Below are positions 2,016 through 11,166 of a stretch of DNA of 50,734 nucleotides, piece after piece (position 1 is the first letter of the stretch; each line of letters starts with the position of its first letter). The DNA is taken from positions 1-50,734 of the IMG/VR virus record IMGVR_UViG_3300037225_000234, one strand, 5' to 3'. The stretch is from a virus. The position numbers were made by a program, and so were the translations under genes. The notes below the pieces were generated by a model that saw only the letters and a list, made by a program, of their open reading frames with translations, searched no databases and was not told where the DNA came from.

Positions 2016-2655
2016 TTCAGATGGGCATTAAGACAATTCCGAGGGAAGGCTAATCATGGAAGCCATCAAAATAGCATATTTGGCAGGGATAATTGACGGC
2101 GAAGGATATTTCGGCGTTATTAAATCCTATGGCGAATATACTAAAGTAGATGGCACTCCGTCTCCTCGTTTCAGGGCAAAAATGGTTATAGTGAATACTG
2201 ATTTAAGGCTTATAACTGCTTGCTCTGAAATCCTCAAAGAAATTGGCGTTAAACATTACGTTAGAACTGTTATTCTTGGAGGAATGAGAAGAACTCGTTT
2301 TAATATTGAAGTTTCCGCATTAAAATCTGTTGCAAAACTTGCTGAAATAGTTTTGCCTTATCTTGTTGCAAAAAAGGAACAAGCGGAAGTAATGATTGCA
2401 TACTCAAAACTTCCTACGCTTCCTTGTAAACTTGGTAGAGGCAAAAATGAAGCAATGGTTAATGCAATAGTATTGAAACTTCAAGAGTTAAAAAAAGTTG
2501 ATTATGTCCCTGTAGAGACTGTGTGCCAAACTCCTAAAGCAAATGCTATGGAGAAGATACAGTCCGAACTGCACGGTGACGTGCAGAAGCAGGCAGAAAT
2601 GCCCTGCTCTTTAATTAGCAATAATTAAAGTAACAAAATTGCGTTACACATCCGG
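2016..2655 (+). ncRNA. Group I intron in the major capsid gene
   Basis: The capsid reading frame is broken by 640 bases containing an endonuclease ORF and clear group I core elements. P1 is 2008-2015 with 2025-2032. P7 is GACTGT (2517-2522) with ACAGTC (2559-2564), and the 3' strand lies in AAGATACAGTCC, a close match to the conserved S element AAGAUAUAGUCC. P8 is CTCC/GGAG at 2531-2553. P9 is CTGCACG-GTGA-CGTGCAG (2569-2586), with a GNRA loop. Two further hairpins carry GAAA and GCAA loops, the second with perfect 9-bp arms (2609-2630). A possible P3 is TTTGGCA (2079-2085) with TGCCAAA (2524-2530). Ending at G2655 is the only nearby choice that gives both a terminal G and the capsid frame. 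P4-P6 were not resolved. Confidence 0.88.
2056..2628 (+). CDS. LAGLIDADG homing endonuclease (intron-encoded)
   Basis: This 190-residue protein has one LAGLIDADG-type motif, LAGIIDGEG, at residues about 9-17, with the acidic residue expected to bind metal. A second conserved block (VAKLAEIVLPYLVAKKEQAEVM) is typical of this family. One motif implies that it works as a homodimer cutting a long, near-palindromic target. By family, it cuts intron-less capsid genes so that the intron is copied in. The ATG at 2056 follows GAGGGAAGG. The ORF lies wholly inside the group I intron, and its last third is also the ribozyme P7-P9 region, so the same DNA is under protein and RNA constraint. A maturase side function is possible but not shown. 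Confidence 0.85.
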   Translation: MEAIKIAYLAGIIDGEGYFGVIKSYGEYTKVDGTPSPRFRAKMVIVNTDLRLITACSEILKEIGVKHYVRTVILGGMRRTRFNIEVSALKSVAKLAEIVLPYLVAKKEQAEVMIAYSKLPTLPCKLGRGKNEAMVNAIVLKLQELKKVDYVPVETVCQTPKANAMEKIQSELHGDVQKQAEMPCSLISNN

Positions 2656-3674
2656 CGACATTGGTTCGTTCAGCCCACGGCGATATTGTCGCCTTGGAAG
2701 CACGGAACGGCACGCTCTGGTTAATGAGGGCGGTTGAACAGGGATTGTTCACTGGCAGTAGCCGGAATAACTCGCTTGAGTTTGACGGTTTTCAGAAACA
2801 GATGATTGATAATGGAAACATTATCGACGCACAGGGTATGCCTCTTTCAGAAGCACTTCTGGAAAATACTTGTGCAGTAACCGCACAGAATTTTGGTATG
2901 GTTTCTGACTGTTTCCTGTCATTGCAGGCTATCGCTAATATAGCCAAGACGTTCTTCCCACGTGAACGTGCGATGTTGCCTGCTCCGGTTAAAGGCGTGG
3001 TCGGCGTTCCAATCACCCATTTCAGCAGTCAGAACGGGATATTCAATTTCAACCCTGATGTGTTTATCAGGGAAGGGCAGGGGTCACTTGCAACTGCTAA
3101 TACCGGTGCACCGGCGACAACCGCATTGGCGATTGCGTCAGCAGATGCGGCAGGCACAACTTACCACCTGTTAGCGGTAGCATACGACTGGAAAGTTTCA
3201 GCCGTCAATTCCAATGGCGAATCACTTGCTGTTGGTGGAAGTATTGCCCAAACTGCTACTCTTGGTAGCAGGGTTGCGTTGACAATCACCATTTCGACCG
3301 CAACACCGACGACCGACCAACCGGCGGCCTCGGCATATAAGATTTACAGGAAAACAGCGACAGGGAATTATCTTTACCTGAAAACTGTTGTGCCTGCGGA
3401 TGACTCTGGTTATACGGTGGGTAATCCGACCTTTACCGTCTATGACGACGGAACATATATCGAGGGAACGTCTCCTGCATACTTCTTCGATATGAACCCA
3501 ATGCAGGTAATGTCGTTCAAGCAACTTGCACCTATTATGAAGTTGCCTCTGGCGACAATCTCGGCCGCTATCCGCTTTATGGTGCTCTTATACGGGGTGC
3601 CGATTTTGTATGCTCCTAAAAAGGGTGCGATAGTGATAAATGTGGGTAGTTCTCCGACGCCGTTAAACATCTAA
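2656..3674 (+). CDS. Major capsid protein, exon 2 (with Ig/FN3-like insertion)
   Basis: The exon continues the capsid frame: codon 151 is split across the junction, followed by TLVRSAHGDIVALEARNG, a segment typical of the capsid core. Translation from the TTG at 2661 would have no ribosome site, so this is an exon rather than a gene. Core-like sequence runs to about 3090 and resumes at about 3475 (PAYFFDMNPMQVMSFKQLAP). Between them (3096-3473) is a Thr/Ala/Ser-rich stretch with AVNSNGES and YKIYRKTATGNYLYL, which looks like an immunoglobulin or fibronectin-III type domain inserted into the shell protein. Such insertions usually face outward and decorate the capsid. The protein ends GAIVINVGSSPTPLNI at 3674. 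Confidence 0.82.
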
Positions 3675-3739: not shown

Positions 3740-4507
3740 ATGGAGACAGAAAAAAAGAAATATAAACGACATTATCCGCATTGCAGATTATGTGATAAGG
3801 AACTCGGTCGTTCTGATGCTGTTTTTTGCAGGCATTGTTACGACACCAATCCCGATTTATTAAAAATAAGAAGTGAAAGAATGTCGGGAAACAATAATCC
3901 GACAAAAAATCCAGTAATAGCAAAGAAAATCAGTGATGCTAAAAAAAATAAATCGTATACCGAAAAACAAATAGGCAAATGTGGATTTCAAAAAGAAAAT
4001 AAGTTAAGTAGTTTTAAGCGGTCAGAAGAAACAATAAAAAAAATAAAACATAAAAAAACGTCAGAACATTGTATTGCAATAAGTATGGCAAGATTAGGAA
4101 TAAAAAATACAAAAGACTGGTTTGGTTTTGTGACGCCCATATATCAACAATTAAGAAATTGTATGAAATATCAGGAATGGCGTCAGCAAATTTTTGTTCG
4201 TGACCATTTTACTTGTCAGAATCGTAATTGTAATAAAACAAATAAAAGATTGCACGCACATCACATTAAACATTTATCCGAACTATTAAAAGAGGTTTGG
4301 TTCTATTTGCCTTTAATGGCAGATGAAGATTTATTTAAGGCTTGTTTAGTATATGACCCCATGTGGGATATAAAAAACGGAATTACACTTTGCGAAAAGT
4401 GTCACAAAATAGAACACAGTAAAGAAAGCGGTCAGGCTTCACGCCCTAATGTGTGTGGCGATTCTCAAAAGGGGTCGCCCACACAACCGCTTTTTGTAAA
4501 TAATTAA
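3740..4507 (+). CDS. HNH homing endonuclease 1
   Basis: This 255-residue free-standing endonuclease has an N-terminal zinc ribbon (CRLCDKEL...CRHC) and a basic Lys/Asn-rich middle typical of NUMOD-type DNA-binding repeats. The C-terminal HNH domain shows FTCQNRNC, LHAHHIKHLSELL and ITLCEKCHKIEH. The HH pair and the flanking Cys pairs are the expected metal and catalytic residues. By family, it nicks or cuts a specific site to copy itself into empty alleles. It sits between the capsid gene and the head-joining genes, so it is an insertion in the structural operon. The last 25 residues (after the HNH) are unlike any HNH tail and coincide with a strong RNA structure at 4425-4493. Start ATG 3740 follows AAAAAAGGAA. 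Confidence 0.85.
   Translation: METEKKKYKRHYPHCRLCDKELGRSDAVFCRHCYDTNPDLLKIRSERMSGNNNPTKNPVIAKKISDAKKNKSYTEKQIGKCGFQKENKLSSFKRSEETIKKIKHKKTSEHCIAISMARLGIKNTKDWFGFVTPIYQQLRNCMKYQEWRQQIFVRDHFTCQNRNCNKTNKRLHAHHIKHLSELLKEVWFYLPLMADEDLFKACLVYDPMWDIKNGITLCEKCHKIEHSKESGQASRPNVCGDSQKGSPTQPLFVNN
4425..4493 (+). other. Three-way-junction RNA structure / terminator-like element
   Basis: AAAGCGGT (4425-4432) pairs with ACCGCTTT (4486-4493), enclosing two more stems: GGC-TTCAC-GCC (about 4435-4445) and a 10-bp arm TGTGTGGCGA-type (4452-4461 with 4475-4485, one bulged C). The descending arm runs into TTTTTG (4491-4496), so it could terminate transcription. It overlaps the odd C-terminal tail of HNH endonuclease 1. 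Base pairing is seen directly; the role is inference. Confidence 0.45.
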
Positions 4508-4527: not shown

Positions 4528-5277
4528 ATGTCAAAAGGTATTTATACGAGGACAGAAAAACATAGGACTGCCTTGAAAGTTCCTCATAAAGTCCCTCTGG
4601 ATTTTGTTCCTTGGAATAAAGGTATAAAATTGTCTGAAAAAATACGGAATAATATACGTGATGGCCATATTGGATTAAAACATTCTTCAGCAGTAAAAAA
4701 TAAAATAGGAAAAGGAAATAAATTAGCATACAAAGAAGGAAGAAGGATTTGTAAATTACCAAGCCATAAAGGCGAAAAATTATCTCAAGAGCATATAAAT
4801 AAAATTCGAGATTCAAGGAAAGATTATAAACATTCAGAAAAAACTAAAGAAAAAATGAAAGAAAGCCGAATTGAGTGGTTAAAAAAACATCCTGAATTCT
4901 TTTGTAGTGAGAATTTTCCAAAAGGCATATCGAGTAAAGGTTGGAAAGGCGGAATTACTCCGATAACAAAGTTAATTCGTCATTCTTCTAAATACAAACA
5001 ATGGCAAATGGCAGTTCGTATAAAAAAAGATTTTACTTGCAAAACGTGTAAAGAAAAAGGTGGTTATTTGCACGTCCACCATATAAAACCTTTTTCCATT
5101 TTACTGGAAGAAATAAAACAAAATTTACCGTTAATGGATTTATATGAAGGTGCAATGCAATATACTCCTATGTGGGATGTAAATAATGGCGAGATTTATT
5201 GTAAAAAATGTCACGAAGACGAACATGAAAGATTAAAGAAATTAAAAAAGGAAAACAATGTTACACCTTTACCTTAA
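4528..5277 (+). CDS. HNH homing endonuclease 2 with NUMOD3-like repeats
   Basis: This 249-residue protein starts MSKGIYTRT and carries repeated 'xxHSxETKxKIxxxxK' helices over residues about 25-110 (IGLKHSSAVKNKIGKG, DYKHSEKTKEKMKESR), the NUMOD3-type DNA-contact repeats. The C-terminal HNH has FTCKTCKEKGG, LHVHHIKPFSILLEE, then MWDVNNGEIYCKKCHEDEH. It closely resembles HNH genes at 35287 and 48455 in its catalytic domain. The ATG at 4528 follows GGCGGAGGTTAAATAA. It overlaps the next gene by 20 bases, so the following structural gene now takes its ribosome site from inside the endonuclease gene. Confidence 0.87.
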   Translation: MSKGIYTRTEKHRTALKVPHKVPLDFVPWNKGIKLSEKIRNNIRDGHIGLKHSSAVKNKIGKGNKLAYKEGRRICKLPSHKGEKLSQEHINKIRDSRKDYKHSEKTKEKMKESRIEWLKKHPEFFCSENFPKGISSKGWKGGITPITKLIRHSSKYKQWQMAVRIKKDFTCKTCKEKGGYLHVHHIKPFSILLEEIKQNLPLMDLYEGAMQYTPMWDVNNGEIYCKKCHEDEHERLKKLKKENNVTPLP

Positions 5278-7616: not shown

Positions 7617-8537
7617 ATGAAATATAAAACAAAACATACAGTAAAAACAAAAAATAAGATTTCGGAATCCGAAAGCGAAACAAAAAAGAAATTGTTTGCA
7701 GAAGGTAAATTAAAAATATGGAATAAAGGTATTCCGATGTCGGAGGCACAAAAAGATAAATTATCTAAAATCTTAACTAATGGGATTGGTAAAGCAGAGG
7801 TTACTTGTTTAGGATGTGGAATTAAATTTAAGGTTTCACCTTCAAGAATTAAAAGTGGAAGAGGGCGTTATCATTCAAAAGAATGTCAATATAAAGCAAA
7901 GTTAGGAAGTGGTATTAAAAAATATTGTCAATATTGTGGCAATCTAATTCCTGGTGATGGAGACAAGTATTGCAATAGAATATGTATGGGTCTTGCAATG
8001 TCAGGTGAAAATAGTCCAGCAAAAAGACCAGAAGTTAGAAAAAATATGAGTAAAGCCCATACAGGTTTAAAGTCTCCATTGAAAGGTATTCCAAGACCAG
8101 ATTTCCAAGGTGAGAATAATCCTTGTTATAAAAGTGGATTACCCAAATGCGAAAAGTGCGGAAAAGAATTAAGTGATTACGATAGTGAATTATGTAAAGA
8201 ACATTATTTGGAATCATTAAGCGGGAAAGGGAATCCTGCATGGCTTAATGGAATAAGTAAATTACCATATTCTTTTGATTTCGATGAGAGATTGAAGGAT
8301 TTTATACGGGACAGAGAAAAACATAAATGTCTTTTATGTGAAGTGCCAGAAAAGGAACTCGACAAAAAATTATGCGTTCATCATATTGATTATAATAAGA
8401 AAAATAGCAGTGAAGTGAATTTAGTAGCATTATGTAATTCTTGTAATATTAAAGTAAACACCAATCGCAAATATTGGGAAAATTACTTTACAGATTTAAT
8501 GATTTCCAAAATAGATTTTTCAAAAAAGGAAACTTAA
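7617..8537 (+). CDS. HNH homing endonuclease 3 with several zinc ribbons
   Basis: This 306-residue protein has a Lys-rich start, then at least three Cys pairs (CLGCGIKF, CQYCGNL, CEKCGKEL), with RIKSGRGRYHSKECQ and NRICMGLAMSGENSP between them. The C-terminal HNH reads KCLLCEVPEKEL, CVHHIDYNKKNS and ALCNSCNIKVNTNRKYW. The same HNH subtype and the RIKxGRGxY segment occur in the gene at 41288, so these two are paralogues. It is inserted exactly between two structural genes: ATG is adjacent to the previous TAA, and the next ATG follows its stop directly. By family it is a mobile site-specific endonuclease. Confidence 0.87.
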   Translation: MKYKTKHTVKTKNKISESESETKKKLFAEGKLKIWNKGIPMSEAQKDKLSKILTNGIGKAEVTCLGCGIKFKVSPSRIKSGRGRYHSKECQYKAKLGSGIKKYCQYCGNLIPGDGDKYCNRICMGLAMSGENSPAKRPEVRKNMSKAHTGLKSPLKGIPRPDFQGENNPCYKSGLPKCEKCGKELSDYDSELCKEHYLESLSGKGNPAWLNGISKLPYSFDFDERLKDFIRDREKHKCLLCEVPEKELDKKLCVHHIDYNKKNSSEVNLVALCNSCNIKVNTNRKYWENYFTDLMISKIDFSKKET

Positions 8538-9797: not shown

Positions 9798-10546
9798 TAG
9801 GTAATATCAGGGTTGATACGAGTCCGAGTTTCAAAAAGTTTCCGCAGAGAATTGCTGAAATGGTTGGACATTGGACAGAAGGCGAAAACGCCGTCAAAGC
9901 GGCTACAGTTCTTGTTCAACAGGAATGGATAAAATATATCAGTGGTAGCGAGGTAAATTATTCCGGCGGAACATTTACTATCCATAGGATGTCAGGCCGA
10001 TATGTGCAAGAGGTCACAAACGGATTGAGGTATCCTTACGAGGGCAGTAAATTGAAAGGTTGTATAGAAGTAGATTTGGCTTATGCCGATATTCTTGACC
10101 GAGGATTTTCGTCCTTTGACATGAAACCAGGATTGTTGAAAGGTAAAGATTATGTTGATATTCCATTTGAACATTCTGTTGGTGGATTGCCGTCAGAAAT
10201 TAAACAGAATATGGCTGGCGGACGATTGGCTAATATAAGAATTGGCACAGACCTTAAAACATTCCAGTTAGGGCAGAGAACAAAATTGACACCTTTGGAA
10301 AATGGGCTTACTCCTTATACATGGAGAAGTGGTTTGTATGCAGGATTAACAAGCACAGGTGCAGGACAAGCATTTACGTTCAGAAGAATTTCAAAGAATT
10401 CACCGCCGAATGCTTGGATGCACCCTGGCCAAGAACCTCGTCCAGTCACAAGGGCTTTATCTGAAAATATGGAAGCCCAAGTTTCTGAAATAATCCGCAA
10501 CGGCTTCGAGAGAGATTTGGCTAATGCTGAACGAGGAACAAAATGA
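9794..10546 (+). CDS. Tail completion / neck protein (HK97 gp10-like position)
   Basis: I choose the ATG at 9794, which overlaps the previous stop as ATGA and has GAGGA at 9778-9782, over the in-frame ATG at 9752 that lacks a ribosome site. The 250-residue product begins MIGNIRVDTSPSFKKFPQRIAEMV. It has an amphipathic helix region (ENAVKAATVLVQQEWIKYISG) followed by a beta-rich part, like minor tail proteins of the gp10 type that join head and tail. The C-terminus reads RPVTRALSENMEAQVSEIIRNGFERDL, a helix that resembles the end of that family. Assignment is from pattern and position. Confidence 0.55.
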   Translation: MIGNIRVDTSPSFKKFPQRIAEMVGHWTEGENAVKAATVLVQQEWIKYISGSEVNYSGGTFTIHRMSGRYVQEVTNGLRYPYEGSKLKGCIEVDLAYADILDRGFSSFDMKPGLLKGKDYVDIPFEHSVGGLPSEIKQNMAGGRLANIRIGTDLKTFQLGQRTKLTPLENGLTPYTWRSGLYAGLTSTGAGQAFTFRRISKNSPPNAWMHPGQEPRPVTRALSENMEAQVSEIIRNGFERDLANAERGTK

Positions 10547-11166
10547 GTATTAAAGGAACAGATTTGAAGCACGAACTTGTCAGGATTTATCAAAGAGAAT
10601 TTGCCTTGAGAAATATACAGATGACAGTTTTAAGTAGTGACCCAAGAGTTCACGCAGAGATTCCGTGCTTGGCTATAAATCGCACCAACGACTCGGAAGA
10701 TAATCAGGGTTTCAATAATTTTTACGAGGAAAAGTTTAACACGGTTGACGCTGATAACGTTTCGGATGATATTCTCTATTCAGGTTTAATGACCGAAACT
10801 TGCGAAATAAGAATGTGGACTGAAAATGCACAGATGCGTGATGACTATTATTTTACTATCAAAGAAATTGCTCTGCTTGCAAAACAGGAACTAATCCTAA
10901 AAGGATTAGGAAATATGAGAATAACCGGTGGACGGGACGAACAGGATTTTAAGACGTTTGAGCCGTATTTCATATATTGGGCTACGATTAACTTTGTTGC
11001 TCTTAATCCACTTGATGTTAAGAGGAATATTCCGGCTATTTACGGCATAATAAAGAGCATTACTGTAAACGTTATATTAGAACCGCCTCAATCAAAAGAG
11101 GATAAGATATTAGGTTTGGTTGAGACTATTTCAGAAAACGATAATATAGCACCAGTAAAAACGTAG
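10543..11166 (+). CDS. Putative tail terminator protein
   Basis: The gene is ATGA-coupled to the upstream one. The 207-residue product has a helix-rich start (LKHELVRIYQREFALR) and a central ETCEIRMWTENAQMRDDYYFTIKEIALLAKQEL segment, like tail terminators that cap the tube. It comes immediately before the tail sheath gene, the usual site of a terminator or completion gene. No conserved catalytic residues were seen. Medium certainty from synteny. Confidence 0.5.
   Translation: MSIKGTDLKHELVRIYQREFALRNIQMTVLSSDPRVHAEIPCLAINRTNDSEDNQGFNNFYEEKFNTVDADNVSDDILYSGLMTETCEIRMWTENAQMRDDYYFTIKEIALLAKQELILKGLGNMRITGGRDEQDFKTFEPYFIYWATINFVALNPLDVKRNIPAIYGIIKSITVNVILEPPQSKEDKILGLVETISENDNIAPVKT

Follow-up and report, generated by a model that had tools for sequence, protein, structure and literature searches.

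A Predicted Mobile Group I Intron with a LAGLIDADG Endonuclease Reading Frame in the Major Capsid Gene of an SPO1-like Phage

Judged from its DNA, the SPO1-type major capsid gene of the virus described here is interrupted by a group I intron that contains a LAGLIDADG homing-endonuclease open reading frame (ORF). The gene lies in IMGVR_UViG_3300037225_000234, a linear virus record of 50,734 bases that we analyzed in full (hereafter, the window) and that is perhaps a fragment of a phage genome. All window features described below are on the plus strand. The best-supported splice sites follow T1947 (5′) and G2641 (3′), which would define an intron of 694 nt (1948–2641). This assignment is drawn from empty-site relatives, an enumeration of splice pairs, the fold, and a covariance model built without the window. 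We consider it very likely that the major capsid gene of this SPO1-like phage harbors a mobile group I intron that is spliced at T1947/G2641. Introns in capsid genes have already been published, and here the boundaries proposed in an earlier note on this DNA are corrected.

Results

The open frames at 1565–2053 and 2661–3674 both match PHROG 752, the major head protein (E = 1.9e-24 and 7.1e-56, respectively). PHROG matches place the head genes in the order known from SPO1: a piece resembling a maturation protease comes first, followed by a scaffold-like gene and then the major capsid gene. Genes that match tail and baseplate proteins lie downstream. The scaffold-like protein (685–1521) contains a long charged repeat of the EDEDAKGKK type.

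The RNA between the two capsid pieces can be folded into a group I core that comprises P3 to P9, J8/7, and the guanosine site in P7, with canonical bases in every assigned pair. P1 (1944–1959) pairs GGGU (1944–1947) with GCUC (1956–1959) and thereby presents U1947·G1956 at the 5′ splice site. This helix is only 4 bp long, includes two wobbles, and appears in the unconstrained minimum-energy fold with a pair probability of about 0.5. It is followed by P2 (1961–1980, 8 bp, GAAA tetraloop), the 5′ strand of P3 (UUGGC, 1988–1992, five canonical pairs with GCCAA at 2525–2529), P4 (1997–2042; UCGGAA at 1997–2002 with UUCCGA at 2037–2042), P5 (2007–2033; 2007–2015 with 2025–2033), and the 5′ strand of P6 (GGGA, 2043–2046, with UCCC at 2507–2510). 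P7 and P8 lie within 2515–2565: P7 pairs 2515 and 2517–2521 with 2560–2565, leaving A2516 bulged, and P8 pairs 2531–2534 with 2550–2553. J8/7 reads AAGAUA (2554–2559), and the conserved element AAGATACAGTCC spans 2554–2565. P8 and J8/7 presumably resemble those of the Azoarcus tRNA intron (IC3). P9, P9.1, and P9.2 occupy 2569–2630, and GNRA loops close four hairpins (P2, GAAA; P9, GUGA; P9.1, GAAA; P9.2, GCAA). The 3′ tail UAACAAAAUUG (2631–2641) ends in omega-G and, together with G2630, gives GUAACA.

An unconstrained minimum-energy fold of 1936–2655 recovered 10 of the 11 expected helices, including the P7, P8, P9, and AAGATACAGTCC that the earlier note had pointed out. The missing helix is P3, which is pseudoknotted and therefore expected to be absent. 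P4 and P7 were each one pair short, and the other recovered helices were complete. The fold has a z-score of −8.9, and none of 20 shuffled sequences folded as low. Pairing of the 3′ exon with the internal guide (P10) is common, not universal, among group I introns; by eye, only C2642–G1955 pairs beside P1.

The Rfam covariance search that had been set as a check matched the intron, but the RF00028 score of 31.4 bits (E = 5.3e-6 in a 901-base search, 3e-4 for the whole window) is below the gathering score of 50. This gathering score is a detection threshold and not a defining feature of group I introns. The low score is probably due to the 460-nt loop of P6; the sub-threshold alignment begins at 2358, inside the endonuclease ORF. 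A covariance model from 14 relatives, with the window left out, found 2506–2640 at 109.6 bits as its only hit in 50,734 bases. The relatives in this model share with the window an 18-base motif by which they were selected. At 2 bits per position the motif explains at most about 36 bits, so the greater part of the score comes from other positions. Together with the PHROG 752 halves and RF00028, this model bears out the claim that a group I intron splits the major capsid gene.

Relatives of the 3′ half were collected with the motif AAGATAYAGTCCGAACTG, which was taken from the window and found in 67 viral stretches. Selection required an AGAGAC-like P7 and a G(T/C)AACA tail: from 69 hits including the window, 35 were dropped for a long P7–P8 segment, eight for lack of the P7 motif, eight for lack of the tail, and one as a duplicate, leaving 17. 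L110 and L145 were then excluded because P7 had been located wrongly, and L088 and L143 were retained despite doubtful 3′ ends, giving an alignment (A2) of 15 rows. Of its 473 cells, 87.3% are paired, or 85% (338 of 398) if the five P7 pairs fixed by the selection motifs are excluded. Both bases change at 23 of the 34 pairs. Each of five covariation measures was reached by none of 500 shuffles, and controls with slid partners were 32–38% paired. Related sequences can beat shuffles without any structure, but here many pairs change in both bases. P9.2 is the weakest helix (62–67% of cells paired). The GUAACA tail occurs in 14 of the 15 rows, a count made after the eight hits without G(U/C)AACA had been removed. 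The sixth P7 pair was counted over 51 hits (69 minus 10 without AGAGACT within 120 bases and eight duplicates): it is A-U in 41, G-C in six including the window, and unpaired in four.

For P4 and P5, a search pattern that fixed UCGG and CCGAG of P4 and GACAA of J5/4 gave 23 matches, of which 20 were listed; two longer overlapping versions were dropped and L131 was trimmed, which left 18 rows, 17 of them distinct (A4). In these 17, 97.6% of 170 cells are paired, as are 98 of 102 without the four pattern-fixed P4 pairs. P5 and the free P4 pairs vary with compensation; the fifth P4 pair is U-A in 13 rows, A-U in two, and G-C in two. Two of five measures failed to beat the shuffles here (reached by 123 and 137 of 500). 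Because motifs from the window served to select the relatives, part of their agreement is by construction. Three of the viral contigs (L101, L121, and L122) each hold four group I 3′-half matches, some of them weak, within one short stretch.

The weak P1, the lack of a convincing P10, and the sub-threshold Rfam score could also describe a degenerate intron that no longer splices, so that the capsid gene would be broken or supplied by another copy, for which a linear record of 50.7 kb, perhaps a fragment, leaves room elsewhere. Both exons are open and conserved, however, and the ribozyme core is intact and shows compensatory base-pair changes among relatives. We therefore regard loss of splicing as very improbable.

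The placement of the splice sites draws on two intronless capsid relatives in viral contigs, L008 (79% protein identity over query residues 1–471) and L009 (69%), which span the junction as TRVVTHP(A/M)TLVRSAHG. The predicted 5′ exon (1565–1947; codons 1–127 and two bases of codon 128; PHROG 752) is collinear with both. The predicted 3′ exon (2642–3674, stop codon included) begins C GTT ACA CAT CCG GCG ACA, encoding VTHPAT, of which VTHP is kept in relatives; bases 2643–2666 translate as VTHPATLV. At this position the L008 gene reads STR-V-VTHPATLVRSAHG (STR-V-VTHPATLV) and the L009 gene NTR-V-VTHPMTLVRSAHG (NTR-V-VTHPMTLV). T1947 joined to C2642 gives TTR-V-VTHPATLVRSAHG, a junction without gaps relative to either gene. 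The spliced message would read AGG GT/C GTT ACA across the exon boundary (...AAGGGT/CGTTACAC) and encode a capsid of 471 residues, the junction falling at about residues 124–134 (GTTRVVTHPAT). PHROG 752 covers residues 23–466 of this product with 301.1 bits, a near-full-length match to the SPO1-type capsid.

We enumerated splice pairs with the 5′ site in 1900–2055 and the 3′ site in 2560–2700, which yielded 3,520 in-frame pairs and 2,077 proteins, and scored these against a profile of 61 distinct capsids. The profile sequences came from the 79 uninterrupted genes among 80 loci, out of 450 relatives found. The product of T1947/G2641 ranked first of 2,077 (555.9 bits), and this pair was also the best among those with U and G at the ends (runner-up, 548.6 bits). 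Judged by protein fit alone, the boundary could move by about 2 nt: shifts of 1–2 nt change the score by no more than 1.2 bits, and the protein from T1948/C2642 is identical. Among these near-equal shifts, T1947/G2641 was chosen because group I introns have U before the intron and G at its end, and because U1947 forms the U·G pair in the folded, if short, P1. The 3′ tail GUAACA..., common to relatives, agrees with G2641, with the proviso that rows lacking it had already been removed. The 80th capsid locus, L055, contains an in-frame TAG (3598–3600, codon 200) in a gene that is otherwise full-length; this codon may be a sequencing error, a mutation, or a stop-codon reassignment.

The earlier note had instead predicted splicing after T2015 and at G2655, a capsid of 489 residues, and a junction peptide at residues 148–156. 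The sites supported here lie 68 nt and 14 nt further upstream, and the former 3′ boundary had put the bases encoding VTHPAT mostly inside the intron. T2015/G2655 does restore the frame, and the helix 2008–2015/2025–2032 with a terminal U·G, which had been taken for P1, exists. It matches P5 of the relatives, however, is enclosed by P4 (1997–2002/2037–2042), and is surrounded by P2, P3, and P6. With splicing after T2015, the exon would retain P2 along with the 5′ strands of P3, P4, and P5, and the core would break. The 489-residue product carries an 18-residue insertion that is unique in the alignment and lacks VTHP(A) in a comparison with five named-phage capsids. It ranks 918th of 2,077 (517.0 bits) and scores 276.8 bits against PHROG 752, compared with 301.1 for T1947/G2641. 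The empty-site alleles L008 and L009 also speak against it, and we give these boundaries practically no chance.

To survey the insertion site, we ranked relatives by their match to the 5′ exon only, a ranking in which an intron carries no penalty, and examined 80 of the 302 found; many of these contigs also belong to the set of 80 from 450 capsid relatives. Seventy-five are uninterrupted, and the other five run off the contig but are open past the site. Among the 80 of 302 relatives examined, the window alone has an intron at this site. A covariance model that included the window detected no intron in 81 other loci (L001, introduced below, and the 80 capsid-relative loci), nor in the L008 and L009 records. 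The 3′ exon protein, as a query against viral contigs, returned no relative. A scan for sequences in which the 3′ exon follows the intron tail yielded two contigs; tblastn found no capsid match in either. A distant capsid relative on L146 (minus strand, about 10213–10833; PHROG 752, E = 3.9e-10) contains a tandem pair of group I introns, located upstream of or inside the 5′ part of the capsid gene, with Rfam scores of 65.9 and 44.6 bits (the second below gathering). One of the two adjoins a LAGLIDADG-type ORF.

The loop of P6 contains a predicted single-motif LAGLIDADG homing-endonuclease ORF of 190 amino acids (2056–2628). It matches PHROG 5046 (E = 3.6e-12), and its match to Pfam LAGLIDADG_3 is just under the cut-off (E = 3.8e-4; 21.1 bits compared with 22.5). 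The motif, LAGIIDGEG, retains the acidic catalytic position. PHROG 5046 is labelled as an HNH endonuclease, yet the matching window protein bears a LAGLIDADG motif, so the description of this family may be wrong or mixed. A structure predicted from two sequences is of low confidence (pLDDT 46.9). With the endonuclease protein as query, L001 was the sole relative in viral contigs (31% identity); searches of the phage collection with the endonuclease and with DNA gave no match.

The ORF starts 9 nt past the 5′ strand of P6, its Shine-Dalgarno-like sequence GAGGGAAGG (2041–2049) overlaps that strand, and its final 122 nt overlap the 3′ core from the 3′ strand of P6 to P9.2. L001 ends where the window ORF meets the 3′ strand of P6, and the window ORF runs about 40 codons further, through P7 to P9.2. 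This extension fits the "core creep" described by Edgell and colleagues (in the relevant part of PMC3073962). The capsid frame enters the intron for 106 nt, including its stop codon at 2051–2053, which ends 2 nt before the endonuclease ATG. The ribozyme is thus almost wholly covered by coding frames, capsid to 2053 and endonuclease at 2056–2628 in another frame. According to a passage of PMC3073962, a stop codon closely follows the 5′ junction in most group I introns. By a simple estimate, 34–35 codons stay open by chance with a probability of about 20%, so the open capsid frame alone is no proof of design. An intein or translational bypass could also be suspected from a capsid frame that reads 35 codons beyond the last intact exon codon, but the stop at 2051–2053 and an endonuclease in another frame exclude the usual intein, and with a group I core present we find this hardly credible.

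Discussion

The intron anatomy, the exon reconstruction, and the empty site can be read from the sequences compared here, whereas catalysis, splicing efficiency, endonuclease activity, and homing are put forward from established knowledge of the family. In the mechanism that we propose, the capsid-gene transcript would adopt the group I core fold, and an external guanosine would then attack after U1947. The 3′ OH released on U1947 would in turn attack after G2641, joining the exons as AGG GT/C GTT ACA so that the message encodes the 471-residue capsid. Translation of unspliced RNA would yield the LAGLIDADG protein. In co-infecting phages, this enzyme would cleave intron-free capsid genes at the insertion site, and repair of the cut allele would copy the intron in.

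The capsid frame is open from P1 to the 5′ strand of P6, its stop lies 2 nt before the AUG, and the ORF continues through the 3′ core. This arrangement led us to a further reading, a speculative one that we rate as rather unlikely, in which the capsid gene and its intron form a translation–splicing switch, with capsid and homing enzyme as mutually exclusive outputs of one transcript. Folding, and thus splicing, would hide the endonuclease start, whose Shine-Dalgarno overlaps P6, while ribosomes that translate on past the end of the capsid exon would open up the core and pass translation to the endonuclease through stop–start coupling. Because frames cover almost the whole ribozyme, the interplay between translation and splicing is directly testable in a capsid gene.

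One of the closest published cases is mycobacteriophage LittleE (Cluster J), whose major capsid gene contains an intron that is most likely group I according to its authors; the relevant sections report spliced RNA (by RT-PCR) and a capsid N-terminal sequence across the junction (PMC3706429). LittleE shares with the window a split capsid gene, an exon-final U, an intron-final G, and, in the text, a LAGLIDADG-like ORF. It differs in being a Mycobacterium phage, in an ORF on the opposite strand (HNH in the figure legend), and in an 819-bp insertion; the paper also cites lactococcal phage Tuc2009 (PMC3706429). Group I introns in capsid genes are also described, in the portion consulted, for crAss-like phages, which unlike the window phage belong to a different phage order (PMC7886860). 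That a highly expressed late gene depends on splicing, as the earlier note had emphasized, can thus be fairly inferred and is known already from these phages (PMC3706429, PMC7886860).

Bastillevirinae, which like SPO1 are Herelleviridae, share group I introns with ORFs for HNH, LAGLIDADG, or other endonucleases, according to passages of a survey (PMC11878797). Its LAGLIDADG_2 case lies in a DNA polymerase gene, unlike that of the window, and the word capsid is absent from the main text of the survey (PMC11878797). Among the titles and abstract openings of the papers listed by the literature searches, none reports an intron in an SPO1-type capsid gene. The LSU intron of Synechococcus lividus has, like the window, a LAGLIDADG ORF that overlaps P6/P7/P3/P8/P9 by "core creep"; there the overlap is 81 nt and the ORF sits in P8 of an intron in an rRNA gene, compared with 122 nt and P6 here (excerpt of PMC3073962).

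The correction of a base-level splice prediction yields the likely capsid protein of this phage; without splicing, its two pieces would be annotated as separate genes. The case also adds a putative mobile intron with natural empty sites in the gene of what is usually the most abundant virion protein.

Three HNH-like genes lie near the capsid gene of the window (3740–4507, 4528–5277, and 7617–8537), all with Pfam scores slightly below the cut-off. The first two share 41% identity over 106 residues and sit between the capsid gene and the next gene, an interval of only about 135 nt in L008.
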